Source: Clostridiales bacterium (GTDB lineage: Bacteria > Bacillota > Clostridia > Christensenellales > Christensenellaceae). Taken from it: DNA of 64,000 nucleotides. The translations under genes and the position numbers were made by a program. How positions within the stretch are numbered: the stretch's first letter is position 1; every line of letters starts with the position of its first letter. The stretch is taken from assembly GCA_015056045.1 (NCBI GenBank), contig SVGZ01000006.1, forward strand, positions 1 to 64,000, in the 5' to 3' direction. The notes below the pieces were generated by a model that was given only the letters and a program-made list of their open reading frames with translations, had not been told where the DNA came from and ran no database searches. This document shows positions 9,186-22,393 of the stretch, in pieces.

Positions 9186-9216
9186 GCGGCTACGGGCTTA
9201 CCGAAGCCGTTTTTTA
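9186..9216 (+). terminator. Intrinsic terminator
   Basis: CGGCTacgggcttaccgaAGCCGTTTTTT. Confidence 0.6.
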
Positions 9217-9290
9217 CCGTTAAATTCGCATTTTCCCGTATTCAAATGAGAAGCACTATGCTATAATTATAGGATAGGCAGGTGCTTTTG

Positions 9291-11366
9291 ATGAAGTTCG
9301 AGGAATACGAGATCGAAGGAAAAGGCAGAGGAAAATTCACTCTTCCCGAAAAAAAGAATAAGCCGATGGCTGCTGCAGAAAGGGAAAAAACCGCTGCGGA
9401 TGGGCAGCCTGTGTTTGATGAAAACAAAGCCCTTTTCATGGCAGAAACTGCGGAGGCAAAGGGTGGTTTTGTCGTGCCGGAAAAGAACCTCCAGATCGAT
9501 GAATTCAAAAAGAAAAAAGAAGCTTTCGAAAAAAAGTACCGCAGCTTCAAAGAAGAATTTGAAGCGGGAAAAACACCCGAAGCAGAAAAAAGCGAACTTC
9601 TTTATTATATTTACGAAATTTTATCAAAAACAGACGATATTCGGCAGACAAGTATGAAACTCCAGACTCTTTCCCGTGTATATGATATAAAAGAGGGAAA
9701 AGAGGAGGAAGCACCTACGTTTGAAAATGACTTTTTGTGGGAAATGGGTGAAGAGAAAAGCCGAAGTTTTACCATTCCTGCAAAGAAAACAAAAACAGAA
9801 GAAAAAAATACCGAAAAATATACGGAAAAACCAAGGGAAAACCGTTATCAGATCCTTGCGCAATCGGTCGAAGATCGCTTTATGAACGATGCCCTGCGCT
9901 ATCTTCATGTAAGCGCAAAAGAGGCGCCTTTTGTTGCTTTCAGGTGCTATCTGCCGACTTTTGACCGCATGGATGAACGGCAGCTTGCCTATTATCTCTA
10001 TTGGCGCAGCGAAGCGAAAAAGAATCATTTCCTCAAAACTTCCGAAGCCTATATCGAGCTTTATGCTTATGAGATCATCAATAACATCGGCTTTTTTGCG
10101 GAGGAAGGTTTTGATGAGCTGGTGTCGCTATACCTCGCATACCGTGCGGATTTCCCGAAGCTTGATCAGTATTTTCCCGGCTGGCTGCTCGATTATACCT
10201 TTTCGTTCAGGATCGACCGCGATATTTCGGAGTATCTCGGTTATGCTTCGCAATATACTTACGGCAATATTCTGGACAGGATATTGGAATATGGGCTTAA
10301 GCATACGCCGCTTTCGCTCAATTATGCGATGATCTCGCTGCTTTCCGATTATGACCCGGCGGATAACAAATTTTATGCGGAAAACGAAGCACTTTTCCAT
10401 GAAACGATTCCGAAACTGCTTATTCTTGTCGATTCCTATCTCGAAAAGAAACAGGGCAAGCGTGTTTTTGAGCTATATCAGCCTCGCGAAACTTTGCGTG
10501 ACAGAACGCTTTTCCAAAATGCCGTTTTCTGTTATGAACGCCTGTTGAAAAAGCATCCCTATCGCAGTTATGTGGCGGATTTCCGTCTGCGGGAATTTAT
10601 TACACAATTCATGCGTGCTTCGGAAAACGCCTTAAGAGAAAAAATGGGCTACCGTTCCAAACTGCGTGCGGTAACTTTTGATCCTGAACTGAAAAAATTG
10701 ATCACGAGCTACCTGATCAAGGATACGAAAGAAGTCAAAAAAGAGGAAGAAAAGCTCGACCTCAGCATTCGCATCGATAAAAAACTGCTCATCAAGGCGG
10801 AAAAGGACATTGCAGAAACGATCGAGATGCTTTCCGTGGAGGATACGCCAAAGAATACTGCCTTTACCGAAAAAGAATCGGCATTGATCGCATTTTTCGC
10901 GGAACATGGCGGCAAGCTGAAAGAGGAAGAGCTCTATCAGCGAGATGCGGAGTTTATCCTCACGATCGACAGCATCAATGAAAAAACGCTCTACCAAACG
11001 GGCAGACTGTTACTCGTGGAAAACCGAGGTATTTACACAATGAATCAGCTCGATCTGCCGGAGCTTAAAACGAAAACAAAACTGGAAAAACAGGCAGAGA
11101 TTAAGACAGAAATCAAACAAACAGAACCGACAGAAAAAGAAGAAAGTCCTTTTTCTACGGAAGAAAGGGCCTATATCGCAGCAGCTCTGCGGCTTGATGA
11201 AGCGGAAATGGAGCGCATTGCAGAGGCTGCAGGCTCAATGCCGGAGCTTTTTGAAGAAGCGATCAACGATAAAGCCATGGAGCTCTATGGCGATATCCTG
11301 ATCGAAAGCGGCATGATCATCGAAGATTATCAGGAAACAGCGCTCAGATTAACGGGGGTATTATGA
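9291..11366 (+). CDS. TerB-N / TerB-C domain protein (stress/defence module component 1)
   Basis: Central region RFMNDALRYLHVSAKEAPFVAFRCYLPTFDRMDERQLAYYLYWRSEAKKNHFLKTSEAYIELYAYEIINNIG matches the TerB-N pattern. The C-terminus (FSTEERAYIAAALRLDEAEMERIAEAAGSMPELFEEAINDKAMELYGDILIE) matches the TerB-C pattern. Confidence 0.78.
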   Translation: MKFEEYEIEGKGRGKFTLPEKKNKPMAAAEREKTAADGQPVFDENKALFMAETAEAKGGFVVPEKNLQIDEFKKKKEAFEKKYRSFKEEFEAGKTPEAEKSELLYYIYEILSKTDDIRQTSMKLQTLSRVYDIKEGKEEEAPTFENDFLWEMGEEKSRSFTIPAKKTKTEEKNTEKYTEKPRENRYQILAQSVEDRFMNDALRYLHVSAKEAPFVAFRCYLPTFDRMDERQLAYYLYWRSEAKKNHFLKTSEAYIELYAYEIINNIGFFAEEGFDELVSLYLAYRADFPKLDQYFPGWLLDYTFSFRIDRDISEYLGYASQYTYGNILDRILEYGLKHTPLSLNYAMISLLSDYDPADNKFYAENEALFHETIPKLLILVDSYLEKKQGKRVFELYQPRETLRDRTLFQNAVFCYERLLKKHPYRSYVADFRLREFITQFMRASENALREKMGYRSKLRAVTFDPELKKLITSYLIKDTKEVKKEEEKLDLSIRIDKKLLIKAEKDIAETIEMLSVEDTPKNTAFTEKESALIAFFAEHGGKLKEEELYQRDAEFILTIDSINEKTLYQTGRLLLVENRGIYTMNQLDLPELKTKTKLEKQAEIKTEIKQTEPTEKEESPFSTEERAYIAAALRLDEAEMERIAEAAGSMPELFEEAINDKAMELYGDILIESGMIIEDYQETALRLTGVL

Positions 11367-12676
11367 TAACAAAGATTCCAAAAAGAATATCAACGGCATT
11401 GATCCACTCGCTTTCGAGCGGTGTTGTGCCTCGCACTGGACTTGGCTATATTACGGTCGGCCGTCGTGCGGAAACGGAGGCTTTGACAAAAGATCTCGCC
11501 AGTATTGAGGCAGGTGCAGGCGGTTTCAGGGTCGTCTGCGGTCGATACGGCAGCGGCAAGAGCTTCCTTTTACAGACGATCCGCAGCTATTCGCTTGAGA
11601 AAGGCTTCATCACCGCAGATGCAGACCTTTCGCCCGAAAGAAGGCTTGTCGGCACAAAAGGGCAGGGTCTTGCGACATATCGTGAGCTGATGATCAATTT
11701 TGCCACACGAACAAGACCCGATGGCGGTGCATTGGAGCTGATTTTGCAGAAATGGATCGCAGCACTCCGTCAGGAAGTCGAAGCGGAAAACTCCGGCATT
11801 GCGGATGAAGATCTGATCATCCTCGTTGGCGAAAAGATCGAAGAAACAGCAGGCGAAATGGTCGAGCTCATCCACGGCTTCGATTTTGCAAAGGTCATGG
11901 TCGGCTATTGGCAGGCTTATAAAACAGGCGATACGGAAAAACGACAGGCAGCTTTGCGTTGGCTCAGGGGCGAATATACGACAAAAACAGAAGCAAAACG
12001 CGCGCTTAACGTCGGTTCGATCATCACGGATGAAAACTGGTATGATTTCATCAAGCTTTGGGCAAAATTCGTCACAAAAATCGGCTACAAGGGGCTCGTC
12101 GTCTTTATCGATGAAGCGGTCAACCTCTATAAGATCCCCAATTCGCAGTCCCGAACAGCCAATTACGAAAAGATCCTTTCGATCTTTAACGATACGATGC
12201 AGGGAAAAGCTGAACACCTCTATTTCCTTATGGGCGGTACACCGCAGTTTGTTGAAGATGAACGCCGCGGACTATTTTCCTATGAAGCGCTTCGCAGCAG
12301 GCTCATGCAGGGTCGTTACGCAACGGAAGAACTCCGCAACCTTTCTGCGCCGGTTATCCGCTTAAAACAGCTGACCGATGAAGAGGTTTTCCTGCTTCTC
12401 AAGAAATTAAGGGAGCTTCATGCCGAGCATCATGGCTATGAAATGAATGCAAGCGACGAAGAGCTGATCTCTTTCCTTGAAAATGCCGTCGGCAGAATGG
12501 GCGCAAAAACCCTACTTACACCGCGTGAAGTCATCCGTGATTTCCTCGATACGCTGGATCTCCTCCAACAGAACCCGGAAATGCGCATGGCCGATATTTT
12601 GAAAGATCATAAAGTTGAAGCAGCAAAGGAAGACCCCGATGAGGTAGACGATTTCCTCATGGGCTTTGAAATTTAG
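11363..12676 (+). CDS. BrxD-like P-loop ATPase (DUF2791 family; module component 2)
   Basis: Walker A GRYGSGKSFLLQTI, GQGLATYRELM, Walker B LVVFIDEAVNLY; ATGA overlap with the upstream gene. Confidence 0.82.
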   Translation: MITKIPKRISTALIHSLSSGVVPRTGLGYITVGRRAETEALTKDLASIEAGAGGFRVVCGRYGSGKSFLLQTIRSYSLEKGFITADADLSPERRLVGTKGQGLATYRELMINFATRTRPDGGALELILQKWIAALRQEVEAENSGIADEDLIILVGEKIEETAGEMVELIHGFDFAKVMVGYWQAYKTGDTEKRQAALRWLRGEYTTKTEAKRALNVGSIITDENWYDFIKLWAKFVTKIGYKGLVVFIDEAVNLYKIPNSQSRTANYEKILSIFNDTMQGKAEHLYFLMGGTPQFVEDERRGLFSYEALRSRLMQGRYATEELRNLSAPVIRLKQLTDEEVFLLLKKLRELHAEHHGYEMNASDEELISFLENAVGRMGAKTLLTPREVIRDFLDTLDLLQQNPEMRMADILKDHKVEAAKEDPDEVDDFLMGFEI

Positions 12677-12686
12677 GGGATAACAT

Positions 12687-14861
12687 ATGAGTATGGAAAA
12701 CACTTTTGATCGCCTGGCGCCTTTTATTCAGGAATATATTTATAAAAAAGGCTGGTCTGAACTCAGGGAAGTACAGGTCGAAGCGGCAAAGACACTTTTT
12801 GAAACGGATCATCACCTGCTTTTAGCTTCGGGAACGGCAAGCGGCAAGACGGAAGCTGCTTTTTTCCCGACTTTGACGAAGCTCTATGAAAACCCTTCGG
12901 CAAGCATCGGCATCCTCTATATCGGGCCGTTAAAAGCGCTGATCAATGACCAGTTTGAAAGGCTTTCCGATCTTTTGGAAGAAGCGCATATCAAAGTCAC
13001 GCATTGGCATGGCGATGCGCCGCAATCCGAAAAAACAAAGCTCGTTAAAAACCCGAGCGGTGTTTTGCAGATCACGCCCGAATCTTTGGAAAGCCTTCTC
13101 ATGAACAAGGCAAACGCCGTTCCGCAGATGTTCCATGACCTGCGCTATATCATCATCGACGAAGTACATGCCTTTATGGGCAAAGACAGAGGCGCACAGC
13201 TTTTGTGTGATCTCAACCGTCTTGAGGCAATGGCAGGCGTTCACCCGACGAGGATCGGTCTTTCCGCAACCTTAAAGGATTACGAAGGTGCAGCCGAATG
13301 GCTCCGCAGCGGTACAGGCAATGCCGTCGATGTCAATGACCTCGATATCAAGCGCAGCCTGCGCATCGCCGTTGAGCATTTTATGATCCCAGATGCCAAA
13401 ACGACCGAAGAAACCGAACTCGCCGCACAGGCAGAAGCTGCTTATAACGGTTTTGTCTATGATGCCACGCACAAGAAAAAGTGCATCATCTTTACAAACA
13501 GCCGCGATACAGCGGAGGAAGTCATCCGCAATATGCGCCGAATCGCTGCACAGAGAAACGACCGAGATGTTTTCTATGTGCATCATGGCAGTATTTCGGC
13601 GGCATTGCGCGAAGAAGCGGAGTTTGCTCTGCGTGAAGGAACTGGTCCTGCCGTTTCTGCGGCAACTTTAACGCTCGAACTCGGTATCGATATCGGCGGA
13701 ATGGACAGAACTTTGCAGATCGGTGCGCCGTATTCCGCATCAAGCTTTGTGCAAAGGCTCGGCCGTTCGGGAAGGCGTGGTAATGCGGCGGAAATGATCT
13801 TTGTTTCTGCGGAAGAATTTGACGATATGGCGGCTCTTCCGGCAAAGATCCCGTGGACGCTGCTGCGTTCGATCGCCGTTATCGAGCTGTATCTGAAAGA
13901 AAAATGGGTCGAACCCATTATCGAAAAAAAGATGCCTATGGGCCTTTTGTATCATCAGACCATGAGCATCTTAAAAAGCCATACCAATATGCTCCCGCAG
14001 GATCTTGCAAAAGAAGTTTTGCTTCTCCCGCCATTTGAAAATATTTCGCTTGGCGATTACGGCAATTTCTTAAAACACCTCATCCTGACCGGTCATATCG
14101 AAAAAATGGACGAAGGTGATCTCATCGTCGGTGAAACGGGCGAGCGCATCATCAACAATTTCCATTTTTATGCGATGTTTGAAGATGAAGAGGAATACGC
14201 CGTCTATTGTGAAAGCGAAGAGATCGGCAGTATTATGACGATTCCGCCGCCGGGTTATGCAATGACGCTTGCAGGCCGTTCCTGGCGCATACTGGAGGTT
14301 GACCACAGGCATAAAACCGTACAGGTCGAGCTGATCAACGGCAAATCCGATACGCTTTGGACAGGCGGTACAGGCGATATCGATCCGAGAATTCTGAAAA
14401 AGATGAAGGAGATCCTCGCAGGCAGCGAAATGTATCCCTATCTTCGCCCGAATGCACAGAACAGGCTCAAAAAAGCACGCAGACTTGTGCAGGAAACAGG
14501 TCTTCTTGCAAGTCCTGTTATAGCGGCAGGCGGTGACACGATGTTTATTATCCCCTGGGTCGGCAGCAAGCAGTTCAGAACGATCGGCAGAGGACTCAAG
14601 CATATGTTCAAAGATGAATTGAAGCTCCGACGCTGTGTTCCGACGGAACCGTATTATTTCTCTGTTGCCGGCGAAGTCAGCCCGGAAAGACTCCTTGAAG
14701 CGGTCAATTTCATCGGTTCGGGTGATTATGATCCCTATCAGCTTTTAGCGGATGATGAAGCGCCTTTGAACGGCAAAAACGATGAATTTGCGCCGGATGA
14801 TCTTCTTCGCAAAGCCTTTATCCTCGATGGCATTGACAATAAATTCGGAAAAATCGGATAA
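12687..14861 (+). CDS. Lhr/BrxHI-like DEAD/DEAH-box superfamily II helicase (module component 3)
   Basis: Motif I ASGTASGKTEAAF, motif II DEVHAF, motif III SATL, motif VI QRLGRSGRRG. Confidence 0.9.
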   Translation: MSMENTFDRLAPFIQEYIYKKGWSELREVQVEAAKTLFETDHHLLLASGTASGKTEAAFFPTLTKLYENPSASIGILYIGPLKALINDQFERLSDLLEEAHIKVTHWHGDAPQSEKTKLVKNPSGVLQITPESLESLLMNKANAVPQMFHDLRYIIIDEVHAFMGKDRGAQLLCDLNRLEAMAGVHPTRIGLSATLKDYEGAAEWLRSGTGNAVDVNDLDIKRSLRIAVEHFMIPDAKTTEETELAAQAEAAYNGFVYDATHKKKCIIFTNSRDTAEEVIRNMRRIAAQRNDRDVFYVHHGSISAALREEAEFALREGTGPAVSAATLTLELGIDIGGMDRTLQIGAPYSASSFVQRLGRSGRRGNAAEMIFVSAEEFDDMAALPAKIPWTLLRSIAVIELYLKEKWVEPIIEKKMPMGLLYHQTMSILKSHTNMLPQDLAKEVLLLPPFENISLGDYGNFLKHLILTGHIEKMDEGDLIVGETGERIINNFHFYAMFEDEEEYAVYCESEEIGSIMTIPPPGYAMTLAGRSWRILEVDHRHKTVQVELINGKSDTLWTGGTGDIDPRILKKMKEILAGSEMYPYLRPNAQNRLKKARRLVQETGLLASPVIAAGGDTMFIIPWVGSKQFRTIGRGLKHMFKDELKLRRCVPTEPYYFSVAGEVSPERLLEAVNFIGSGDYDPYQLLADDEAPLNGKNDEFAPDDLLRKAFILDGIDNKFGKIG

Positions 14862-14867
14862 TAAAGA

Positions 14868-14896
14868 AGAGACTTCTTTCCCGAAGTCTCTTTTTT
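14868..14896 (+). terminator. Intrinsic terminator closing the TerB/ATPase/helicase operon
   Basis: AGAGACTTCtttcccGAAGTCTCTTTTTT, 9-bp stem. Confidence 0.85.
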
Positions 14897-14903
14897 ATTG
14901 CTG

Positions 14904-15488: not shown

Positions 15489-16541
15489 ATGGAAGAATTA
15501 AGCAAAAACAGGCTTTTTCTCGTGCTTGGTGATCGTGCCTTTGCGGAAGATAACCTGCCCGAAGCCTATGCATATTATAAAAAAGCAGTTGAAGAAGCAT
15601 ATGATGACCCCGAATCCATGCTGAAAAAAGGTTATGCGGCTCTTGTTCTTTCGGAAAAAGGTCAATTCCGCTTAAAAGAAATGCTGTTTGCCATTCAGCG
15701 CTCGGAAAAAGACGCAGAACTTGCACAAATCTATTTGGAAAAGATGCTTGCCTTTGCGGAAAATTTCATGCGCGAAAGAATAGGTGAGTTTTATGCACAG
15801 CAGGCAACAGGTTTCATGTGCAAAAAAGAGCTGTATTTGCTCGAAAATGCAGATAAAGCCGCTCTTTTAACGCTCGAAGCGGCCCGTTATGCCATGGAAA
15901 AATATAAAGACGATGCGGAAAAGCTCATGGCTGCACGTAAGCTTGCCTGTGAAGCGATTCATTTTATCTGCATCGACTATTATTATTTCACGGACACAAA
16001 CTTGCTGGAAAAATGTTTTGGCGGTCGTGCATATCCCGATAAAAAAGCCTATATCGCCGAATATGACGAGCTTTGCTATCAGATCCGCGCGGATGAACCC
16101 AAATATCGCAAGGAAGATGAAAACCCGATCAACCGCATCATGCCGCAGAAGGAAGAAGAAAAGTATGAGCTGCAGCGTGCAAGGGTACTTTCCGTTTTCC
16201 AGCGTCATAAAGACAGAGAGTTTGAAATGCGCCGCCGTGAGGAAAAATATCAGCAGGAAATGGAGCAGAAAAAACTCTTCTGGAAAGATCACCCCGAAGA
16301 ATATCAGAAGTATCTGGATGAACTCGCCGAAATGCGCGATAAACATCAGCGTCTCCTGAAAAAGCTTAAAGAGTATGATGAGATCATCGATATGATCTAT
16401 GATCAGCGGCAGATCATGATTTTGAATGCAGGCCCGATCTGGGGCAAAAAAGCCCGTGCAAGAAAAGAAGCGGAGATCAAGATCGCAGAGCTTAATTACC
16501 GCCTGATGAACGAATTCAGCGATTGGAGCGAATACAGATGA
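15489..16541 (+). CDS. Hypothetical protein, N-terminal TPR-like helices and C-terminal coiled coil
   Basis: Helix-turn-helix repeats (AFAEDNLPEAYAYYKKAVEEAYDDPESMLKKGYAAL), followed by a charged coiled-coil region. Confidence 0.6.
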   Translation: MEELSKNRLFLVLGDRAFAEDNLPEAYAYYKKAVEEAYDDPESMLKKGYAALVLSEKGQFRLKEMLFAIQRSEKDAELAQIYLEKMLAFAENFMRERIGEFYAQQATGFMCKKELYLLENADKAALLTLEAARYAMEKYKDDAEKLMAARKLACEAIHFICIDYYYFTDTNLLEKCFGGRAYPDKKAYIAEYDELCYQIRADEPKYRKEDENPINRIMPQKEEEKYELQRARVLSVFQRHKDREFEMRRREEKYQQEMEQKKLFWKDHPEEYQKYLDELAEMRDKHQRLLKKLKEYDEIIDMIYDQRQIMILNAGPIWGKKARARKEAEIKIAELNYRLMNEFSDWSEYR

Positions 16542-21037: not shown

Positions 21038-22393
21038 ATGAAAAGGGTTTTATCTTTTATACTTGCTTTGGGGATGGTGTTTTTAACTGCGGCAAATGTA
21101 CCCGAAGAAGAAAAAACGATAGAAGAAATAATGGCGCAAATGACTGCGGATGAAATCGTTAGTATCAGCGGAGTAGGCAACCCACAGGATGCTTTGGCTG
21201 AAGTTTATCCCTATGGGATGGATAATACAACTGAGTTTTCTGAACTTCCTTTTTCTTCCTATCCGCTTTCTGTATTGCAGGATTATTTTGAACAAAACCT
21301 GACAAGATATGAAGAATTTGCATTTTGCGGCAAGGAAAGCTATGACTGCTTTATTAAAAGGTCTTTTTCAGAGATAAACAAGTGTTTTCCTGTCCAATTT
21401 GTCCGGCAAGCCAAAAATCCTTATCATTGTTATACGATCTATCAAGTGGATGAAGGCGGCTATTATTACGTCTTCTTCAAAGAAGAACACTATAATTTCA
21501 GGGAAAAAGATACGCAGTATGCACATTTGTACGCGTATCAAACGATGTATCTGCATGATGATCTGCCTCAGTTATCGGATTTTTTTGTAAAAGATATCCG
21601 GACATTGGCGGATGTTGAAGAAAAAGCAGACCTGAACGGAGAGTTTCGCTGCGGTTTGCATCAGGTCGAAGATGGAAAAGCTATCCTTCGCATATATTCG
21701 TTTCATGACCTTGGAAATGGTGCAAAAATATCTGTTGCCTATCGGCCAAAAGAAATCGAAGTCGAACCTGATGAAAATGGGTATTTCGGATATCAAACAG
21801 AAAAAACACATTCGAAAGAGGATTTTGTCATTGATCATATCAGTTTTCTTTCGGATGGAGCGCTTGCTGAACTGCCGAAAAAGGATATTGCAGCCGATAT
21901 TTTAGATGATCTTACCACATTACAGGAACTTCGTGTTGGTACAAAACTGAGTGATCTTAAATATATAGAAAACGATGTCTATCTGAAAAAAGTTTCCTCC
22001 AAAGAAAGCGATTTTGGAACTGTGCTTTTTGCTGCAGAGTATAACGACAGGGATGAAGGGAGTTCTTATCAGTTTATCTATGCGGCAGATCCGCTGAAAA
22101 ATCATGCCGTTACAGATGTGTTGATCATAAAAAACAACACGGAGGTCATACATAGCGAAGGTCATCTTCCCGTTATCGATCCGAATGCTTTGACTCATGT
22201 AATTGGTAAAAACACGCAAACTGTCCTTACGGATATTGGCGAAGAAAATGTATTCTACAAACAAAAAATGACGTCATCCATAGACGGAGGTGAAGTAACA
22301 AGTTATTTTTTCTATGCAAAATCGGGCTGTGTTTATGAAATGGTTGAAAAAAATGGGAGTATTGTGCGTTTATATGAGTATTCTTTAGTGTAA
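21038..22393 (+). CDS. Hypothetical secreted protein
   Basis: 451-aa ORF with N-terminal signal peptide; no recognised domain. Confidence 0.6.
   Translation: MKRVLSFILALGMVFLTAANVPEEEKTIEEIMAQMTADEIVSISGVGNPQDALAEVYPYGMDNTTEFSELPFSSYPLSVLQDYFEQNLTRYEEFAFCGKESYDCFIKRSFSEINKCFPVQFVRQAKNPYHCYTIYQVDEGGYYYVFFKEEHYNFREKDTQYAHLYAYQTMYLHDDLPQLSDFFVKDIRTLADVEEKADLNGEFRCGLHQVEDGKAILRIYSFHDLGNGAKISVAYRPKEIEVEPDENGYFGYQTEKTHSKEDFVIDHISFLSDGALAELPKKDIAADILDDLTTLQELRVGTKLSDLKYIENDVYLKKVSSKESDFGTVLFAAEYNDRDEGSSYQFIYAADPLKNHAVTDVLIIKNNTEVIHSEGHLPVIDPNALTHVIGKNTQTVLTDIGEENVFYKQKMTSSIDGGEVTSYFFYAKSGCVYEMVEKNGSIVRLYEYSLV

Follow-up and report, generated by a model that had tools for sequence, protein, structure and literature searches.

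The three genes at positions 9291-14861 of the window (the whole 64,000-nucleotide stretch of Clostridiales bacterium DNA analysed here) very probably represent a complete and intact Shango operon of a TerB-less branch, with a role in defence. The PADLOC Shango models match all three encoded proteins, i.e., SngA (1.6e-55), SngB (6.3e-186) and SngC (2.1e-234), and the E. coli SngA, SngB and SngC proteins, used as a control, match the same models. Furthermore, the Shango SngB and SngC models score ahead of those for BrxD and BrxHI on the window proteins, the adjacent genes follow the sngA, sngB, sngC order of Shango, and the window SngB groups with known Shango ATPases, apart from BREX BrxD, with a support of 100/100 in the SngB tree. 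Pfam searches of the trio returned TerB_N (5.5e-20), TerB_C (2.6e-4, below the cut-off), BrxC_BrxD (2.7e-162) and DEAD/Helicase_C (3e-28 and 1e-15), which shows the domain calls of a first-pass annotation to be sound, that of TerB_C being sub-threshold.

Shango (SngABC) is known from E. coli (Millman et al. 2022, cited through PMC10250203). The system of P. aeruginosa PA14 protects against phages (Johnson et al. 2023, PMC10250203). Phage protection has been shown for the Gammaproteobacterial systems of P. aeruginosa and E. coli only (PMC10250203), and a literature search returned no phage test of the TerB-less branch. The mechanism is listed as unknown in a 2026 review (PMC12926258), and a further literature search found no mechanistic paper. 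The first-pass annotation had read the trio as a stand-alone anti-phage or DNA-surveillance machine, which is a good reading. The sensor or adaptor role that it gave to the TerB protein is a putative one, and the TerB core itself is missing from this SngA. Its description as an under-described system is wrong for the trio as such, since Shango has been named and phage data exist for it (PMC10250203); what appears to be undescribed in the literature searched is the existence of two SngA architectures, the SngB tip and a partial TerB_N duplication in the genus.

Operon organization and BREX kinship

All three genes lie on the forward strand as intact and tightly coupled open reading frames. The sngA gene (9291-11366; ATG start preferred, GTG at 9282 possible) encodes a 691-aa TerB_N/TerB_C protein without a central TerB domain (PF05099), sngB (11363-12676) a 437-aa AAA+ ATPase of the BrxC/BrxD family, and sngC (12687-14861) a 724-aa SF2 helicase of the BrxHI/Lhr-like group. 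The sngA and sngB genes are joined by an ATGA overlap at 11363-11366 and sngB is separated from sngC by a 10-bp gap (12677-12686), these coordinates, frames and junctions being exactly as first annotated. The -10-like TATAAT at 9262-9267 was likewise confirmed, and together with a TG at 9259-9260, separated from it by one base, it can be taken as an extended -10 element (TGcTATAAT, 9259-9267, forward strand); no good -35 was found. The ABC transporter gene upstream finishes, on the forward strand, in an intrinsic terminator-like stem-loop with a T run (9195-9216; stem-loop at 9195-9208), and a bidirectional intrinsic terminator (14867-14897; inverted repeat at 14867-14892, then T) is common to the trio and the convergent DUF212 (PAP2-like) gene downstream. 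Because stem-loops flank the trio on both sides, it constitutes its own transcription unit, which upholds the earlier view of a self-contained operon followed by a terminator. The upstream neighbours encode a MarR regulator and two ABC exporters.

In SngB and SngC, every Walker A/B and SF2 helicase motif was found to be intact. For SngB these include the Walker A motif GRYGSGKS (11540-11563) and the Walker B motif VVFIDE (12098-12115), and for SngC the Walker A motif SGKTE (12840-12854), motif II DEVH (13158-13169) and motif VI QRLGRSGR (13752-13775). Profile scans detected no nuclease domain or family in the trio, and any degradation would thus need a host enzyme.

The match of SngB to BREX_BrxD (8e-55; 186.6 bits, below the cut-off of 350) and that of SngC to BrxHI (7.5e-126) could indicate a relict or partial BREX type 2/6-like system (BrxD plus BrxHI) to which a TerB gene became attached by chance. 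However, the Shango models score far better, SngB falls outside the BrxD clade, its C-terminal tip is missing from BrxD-like proteins, this trio is encountered in many genomes, and there is no further BREX gene nearby, as first annotated: PADLOC searches of the 50 other ORFs of the window gave generic matches only. The PF10923 family has a single match in the genome (assembly of 2.07 Mb, about 80% complete), and no brxC, pglX or pglZ hit was obtained in the window. The profile scores, the SngB tree and the absence of BREX genes rule out this candidate, leaving it extremely improbable. The BREX kinship initially suggested is accordingly one of shared families only, SngB and BrxD falling in separate clades. 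Ter genes of the TerC/TerD/TerZ type were not detected by Pfam among the trio and ten neighbouring ORFs.

Two other ORFs of the window are without a Pfam or PADLOC match. One, near the operon (15489-16541), encodes a 350-aa charged, probably helical protein and has no DNA-level match in the fetched stretch of the congener; the other (21038-22393, 451 aa) coincides with the lowest local G+C content within the first 30 kb (38% versus ~46%).

Domain architecture of SngA

The TerB core domain (PF05099) is listed for Shango in PMC10952713 and is missing from the window SngA. Pfam detected TerB_N and TerB_C in 24 of the 24 SngA proteins scanned from the wider group of the window and PF05099 in none of them (0/24), versus PF05099 in five of the six proteins of the E. 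coli-type set. A TerB-core profile built from these six E. coli-type proteins was searched against 83 sequences (E < 0.005), one of which, a Persicobacter ATPase frame, is no SngA; it matched its own six members and no other sequence, leaving 76 SngA proteins without the core, including that of the window. The SngB tree unites the six systems that bear TerB in a single clade (100/99), and the distance between TerB_N and TerB_C is ~140 residues in locus L009 compared to ~330 in the E. coli SngA. SngA thus exists as two architectures, i.e., TerB_N-TerB-TerB_C in the tested E. coli-type branch and a form without the TerB core. The core is here treated as variable because the PADLOC SngA profile matches the core-less form and the whole sampled Bacillota branch is without it; since that profile covers both forms, the difference represents an undescribed subdivision and no new system. 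That most sampled SngA proteins, chiefly from Bacillota, are core-less speaks against accounts of Shango based on TerB chemistry (e.g., metal or tellurite sensing), and suggests that TerB_N and TerB_C do the work.

In the window protein, Pfam places TerB_N at residues 185-388 (9843-10454) and the TerB_C match at residues 598-678 (11082-11324). The secondary structure of an AlphaFold2 model indicates a first winged-helix-like module at residues 527-586 (10869-11048; moderate confidence) and a second at residues 623-688. This model, derived from 33 sequences and with a mean pLDDT of 73, consists of a helical hairpin, a well-modelled TerB_N and the two C-terminal winged-helix-like modules; neither sequence nor Foldseek fold searches returned a significant PDB match. 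The low-confidence N-terminal part of the model holds three copies of a short repeat, namely FTLPEK (9336-9353), FVVPEK (9468-9485) and FTIPAK (9768-9785).

The helical hairpin (residues 72-127, 9504-9671; model helices at 68-91 and 97-114) resembles a partial TerB_N duplicate. With a TerB_N profile from which the genus had been left out, a second partial TerB_N was detected in the N-terminal extension of the SngA of a congener (residues 139-213, 35 bits; shuffle maximum 1.8). The corresponding window region reached 8.4 bits, the best of its shuffles 6.8. The partial TerB_N duplication in the SngA of this genus is thus clear in the congener and weak in the window. Of note, four Paenibacillaceae loci (L029, L052, L055 and L070) encode SngA proteins with an additional ~400-800 N-terminal residues before TerB_N, a region which is short in most relatives.

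The SngB tip and a proposed mechanism

The modelled AAA+ fold of SngB resembles HslU, ORC/Cdc6, TnsC and BrxC, and the protein ends in a conserved, Shango-specific short linear motif (DDFLMGFEI in the window, 12647-12673). The consensus of this tip, acidic-[LF]-x-x-F-x-[LIV]-COOH, stands behind a non-conserved disordered linker, and residues 418-437 of the window SngB have a pLDDT below 50. Among the last 12 residues of 87 SngB proteins from Bacillota, Actinomycetota, Pseudomonadota and archaea, Phe is found at position -3 in 86, Leu, Ile or Val at position -1 in all 87, and Leu or Phe at position -6 in 85; acidic residues precede this stretch. In a class-wide scan of the BrxD family, the tip was present in 13 of the 13 proteins with an adjoining SngA and in none of the ten BrxD-like proteins without one. 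This marks the tip as a Shango trait and makes SngA, or else a face of SngC peculiar to Shango, a likelier docking partner than a surface shared by BrxHI helicases in general. Since Shango forms one clade, the contrast of 13/13 with 0/10 does not represent independent events, and we infer the docking partner from co-occurrence inside this one clade only. The near-invariant tail, missing from BrxD, offers a nine-residue handle on the Shango mechanism.

In the mechanism that we propose, SngA would act as a helical scaffold that is built on TerB_N and carries winged-helix modules in tandem, and the AAA+ ATPase SngB would assemble on DNA by analogy with BrxC, ORC/Cdc6 and TnsC-type ATPases, its disordered acidic C-terminal tip providing a tether that docks on SngA. 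The SngABC complex would then deliver or regulate the BrxHI-type helicase SngC on invading phage or plasmid DNA, and the helicase action would be the effector, disturbing replication or processing of that DNA. This detailed scheme, with SngB as a DNA-bound loader, the tail as a tether to SngA and SngC as the effector helicase, is possible and is put forward tentatively.

A finer form of this explanation is an auto-inhibitory switch, in which a FAEFEL/LATFTL motif of SngA would occupy the groove for the SngB tail until infection swaps the two. Consistent with such a switch, the same hexamer is found at the SngA N-terminus and the SngB C-terminus in several lineages, e.g., LATFTL and LANFRL in E. 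coli, and FAEFEL and LAEFEL in Paenibacillus, and an N-terminal copy was found in 28 of 50 SngA proteins at p<=0.05 versus shuffles. Many of these 28 are, however, close Paenibacillus relatives and thus not independent, and most Clostridia SngA proteins show no such copy. In the window, FEEYEI (residues 3-8, 9297-9314) occupies the site of the FAEFEL-like motif of other SngA proteins, yet is not significant (p 0.15), and a profile of the longer N-terminal bipartite motif gave no significant match (0.1 bits). The switch is consequently considered unlikely. In a broader reading, a shared short linear motif would keep the Shango complex together, with the SngB tip and, in several lineages, the SngA N-terminus using a common groove, their exchange acting as an on-switch and the TerB core being a dispensable add-on of one branch; this is regarded as unlikely.

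Distribution and comparison with known systems

A search of 121 genomes identified a close form of the trio in its own genome and one congener, and a more distant form in two genomes from another family of the order; SngABC was found in none of the 15 other sampled family members, and nearly all of the order is without it. The congener carries the same MarR-ABC-ABC-SngABC block at the same place, which indicates that the locus is old in the genus and was acquired or lost elsewhere; local inheritance of the trio looks vertical. In the SngB trees, the window and congener proteins form their own branch, and the two order mates fall inside a Clostridia clade; as read from these trees, the order-level history is not one of simple vertical inheritance.

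Relatives are encoded by at least 559 loci of the genome collection, and among the best 80 of these, together with other fetched loci, most show SngA, SngB and SngC in this order, across Bacillota, Actinomycetota, Pseudomonadota and archaea. The neighbourhood survey that the first-pass annotation had proposed thus finds the trio co-occurring in order across phyla; the defence-island context that it also raised is not seen in the window, where the other ORFs gave the generic PADLOC matches described above. No fourth conserved gene was detected among the neighbours of 86 loci; the neighbours change and the trio stays. Plasmid records with relatives number 691 (542 conjugative), and 480 of the 5426 E. 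coli genomes contain relatives as well; many Paenibacillus species carry Shango, with some shared neighbours within sub-clades.

These data also bear on a housekeeping or genome maintenance role, in which the trio would be a vertically inherited repair or stress helicase complex with a secondary anti-phage effect. Lhr-like helicases often act in repair, and such a role would fit the block shared by both genomes of the genus, the lack of other defence genes in the window, and the Paenibacillus carriers and their partly shared neighbours. Against this, the trio is absent from 15 of 15 other sampled family members and nearly all of the order, the order mates carry a differently related copy, relatives occur on many plasmids, and tested homologues block phages (PMC10250203), making a housekeeping role very unlikely and a defence role the preferred reading.

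A phage-borne origin was ruled out, as the phage collection and viral contigs contain no SngB relative. Placement in a defence island or mobile element was rejected, as the window holds no tRNA, Rfam match or defence neighbours and there is no GC shift over the trio.

Several individual loci show particular features. A TAG stop splits the second of the ABC exporter genes that precede Shango in the congener into two ORFs (L008:5244-7046). A Eubacteriales MAG encodes two tandem SngC-like helicases after SngB (L099:11314-15880), an Atopobiaceae MAG has an SngC-like helicase on the opposite strand (L103:11403-13781), and in L092 such a helicase lies ~6 kb downstream. A Klebsiella plasmid carries SngB and SngC downstream of an IS4-type transposase, SngA being missing from an incomplete gene table (L107:4656-9311), and on a Sulfitobacter plasmid genes for a PD-(D/E)XK nuclease and a UvrD-like helicase directly follow the trio in the same direction (L109:6015-11775). 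The Shango of a Methanosarcina MAG (L086) is closest to Oscillospiraceae-group copies, reflecting transfer or bin contamination.

SngC was placed with BrxHI, DruE and DpdJ in a single clade of defence helicases (PMC12278908). The Dpd and Druantia systems, to which DpdJ and DruE belong, accordingly possess related helicases, but have other partner proteins and a different system organisation. The BrxD-BrxHI pair of BREX shares with the window an adjacent, homologous ATPase and helicase, but is without SngA, has a BrxD that lacks the SngB tip and falls in a separate clade, and requires other BREX genes. Relative to E. coli and PA14 Shango, the window system exhibits the same three genes, order, families, catalytic motifs and class of SngB tip (LANFRL in E. 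coli, LMGFEI in the window), while its SngA is devoid of the central TerB core and of some of the middle region, and is extended at the N-terminus by a segment that includes the partial TerB_N duplication; the window SngB is ~42% identical to a Klebsiella homologue. Paenibacillus Shango (e.g., L026 and L031) shares with the window the TerB-less SngA, the gene order and an SngB of ~60% identity, but differs from the window genus in that no TerB_N duplication is seen, and its SngA N-terminus displays a clear FAE[FI][ED]L plus IPxR motif.
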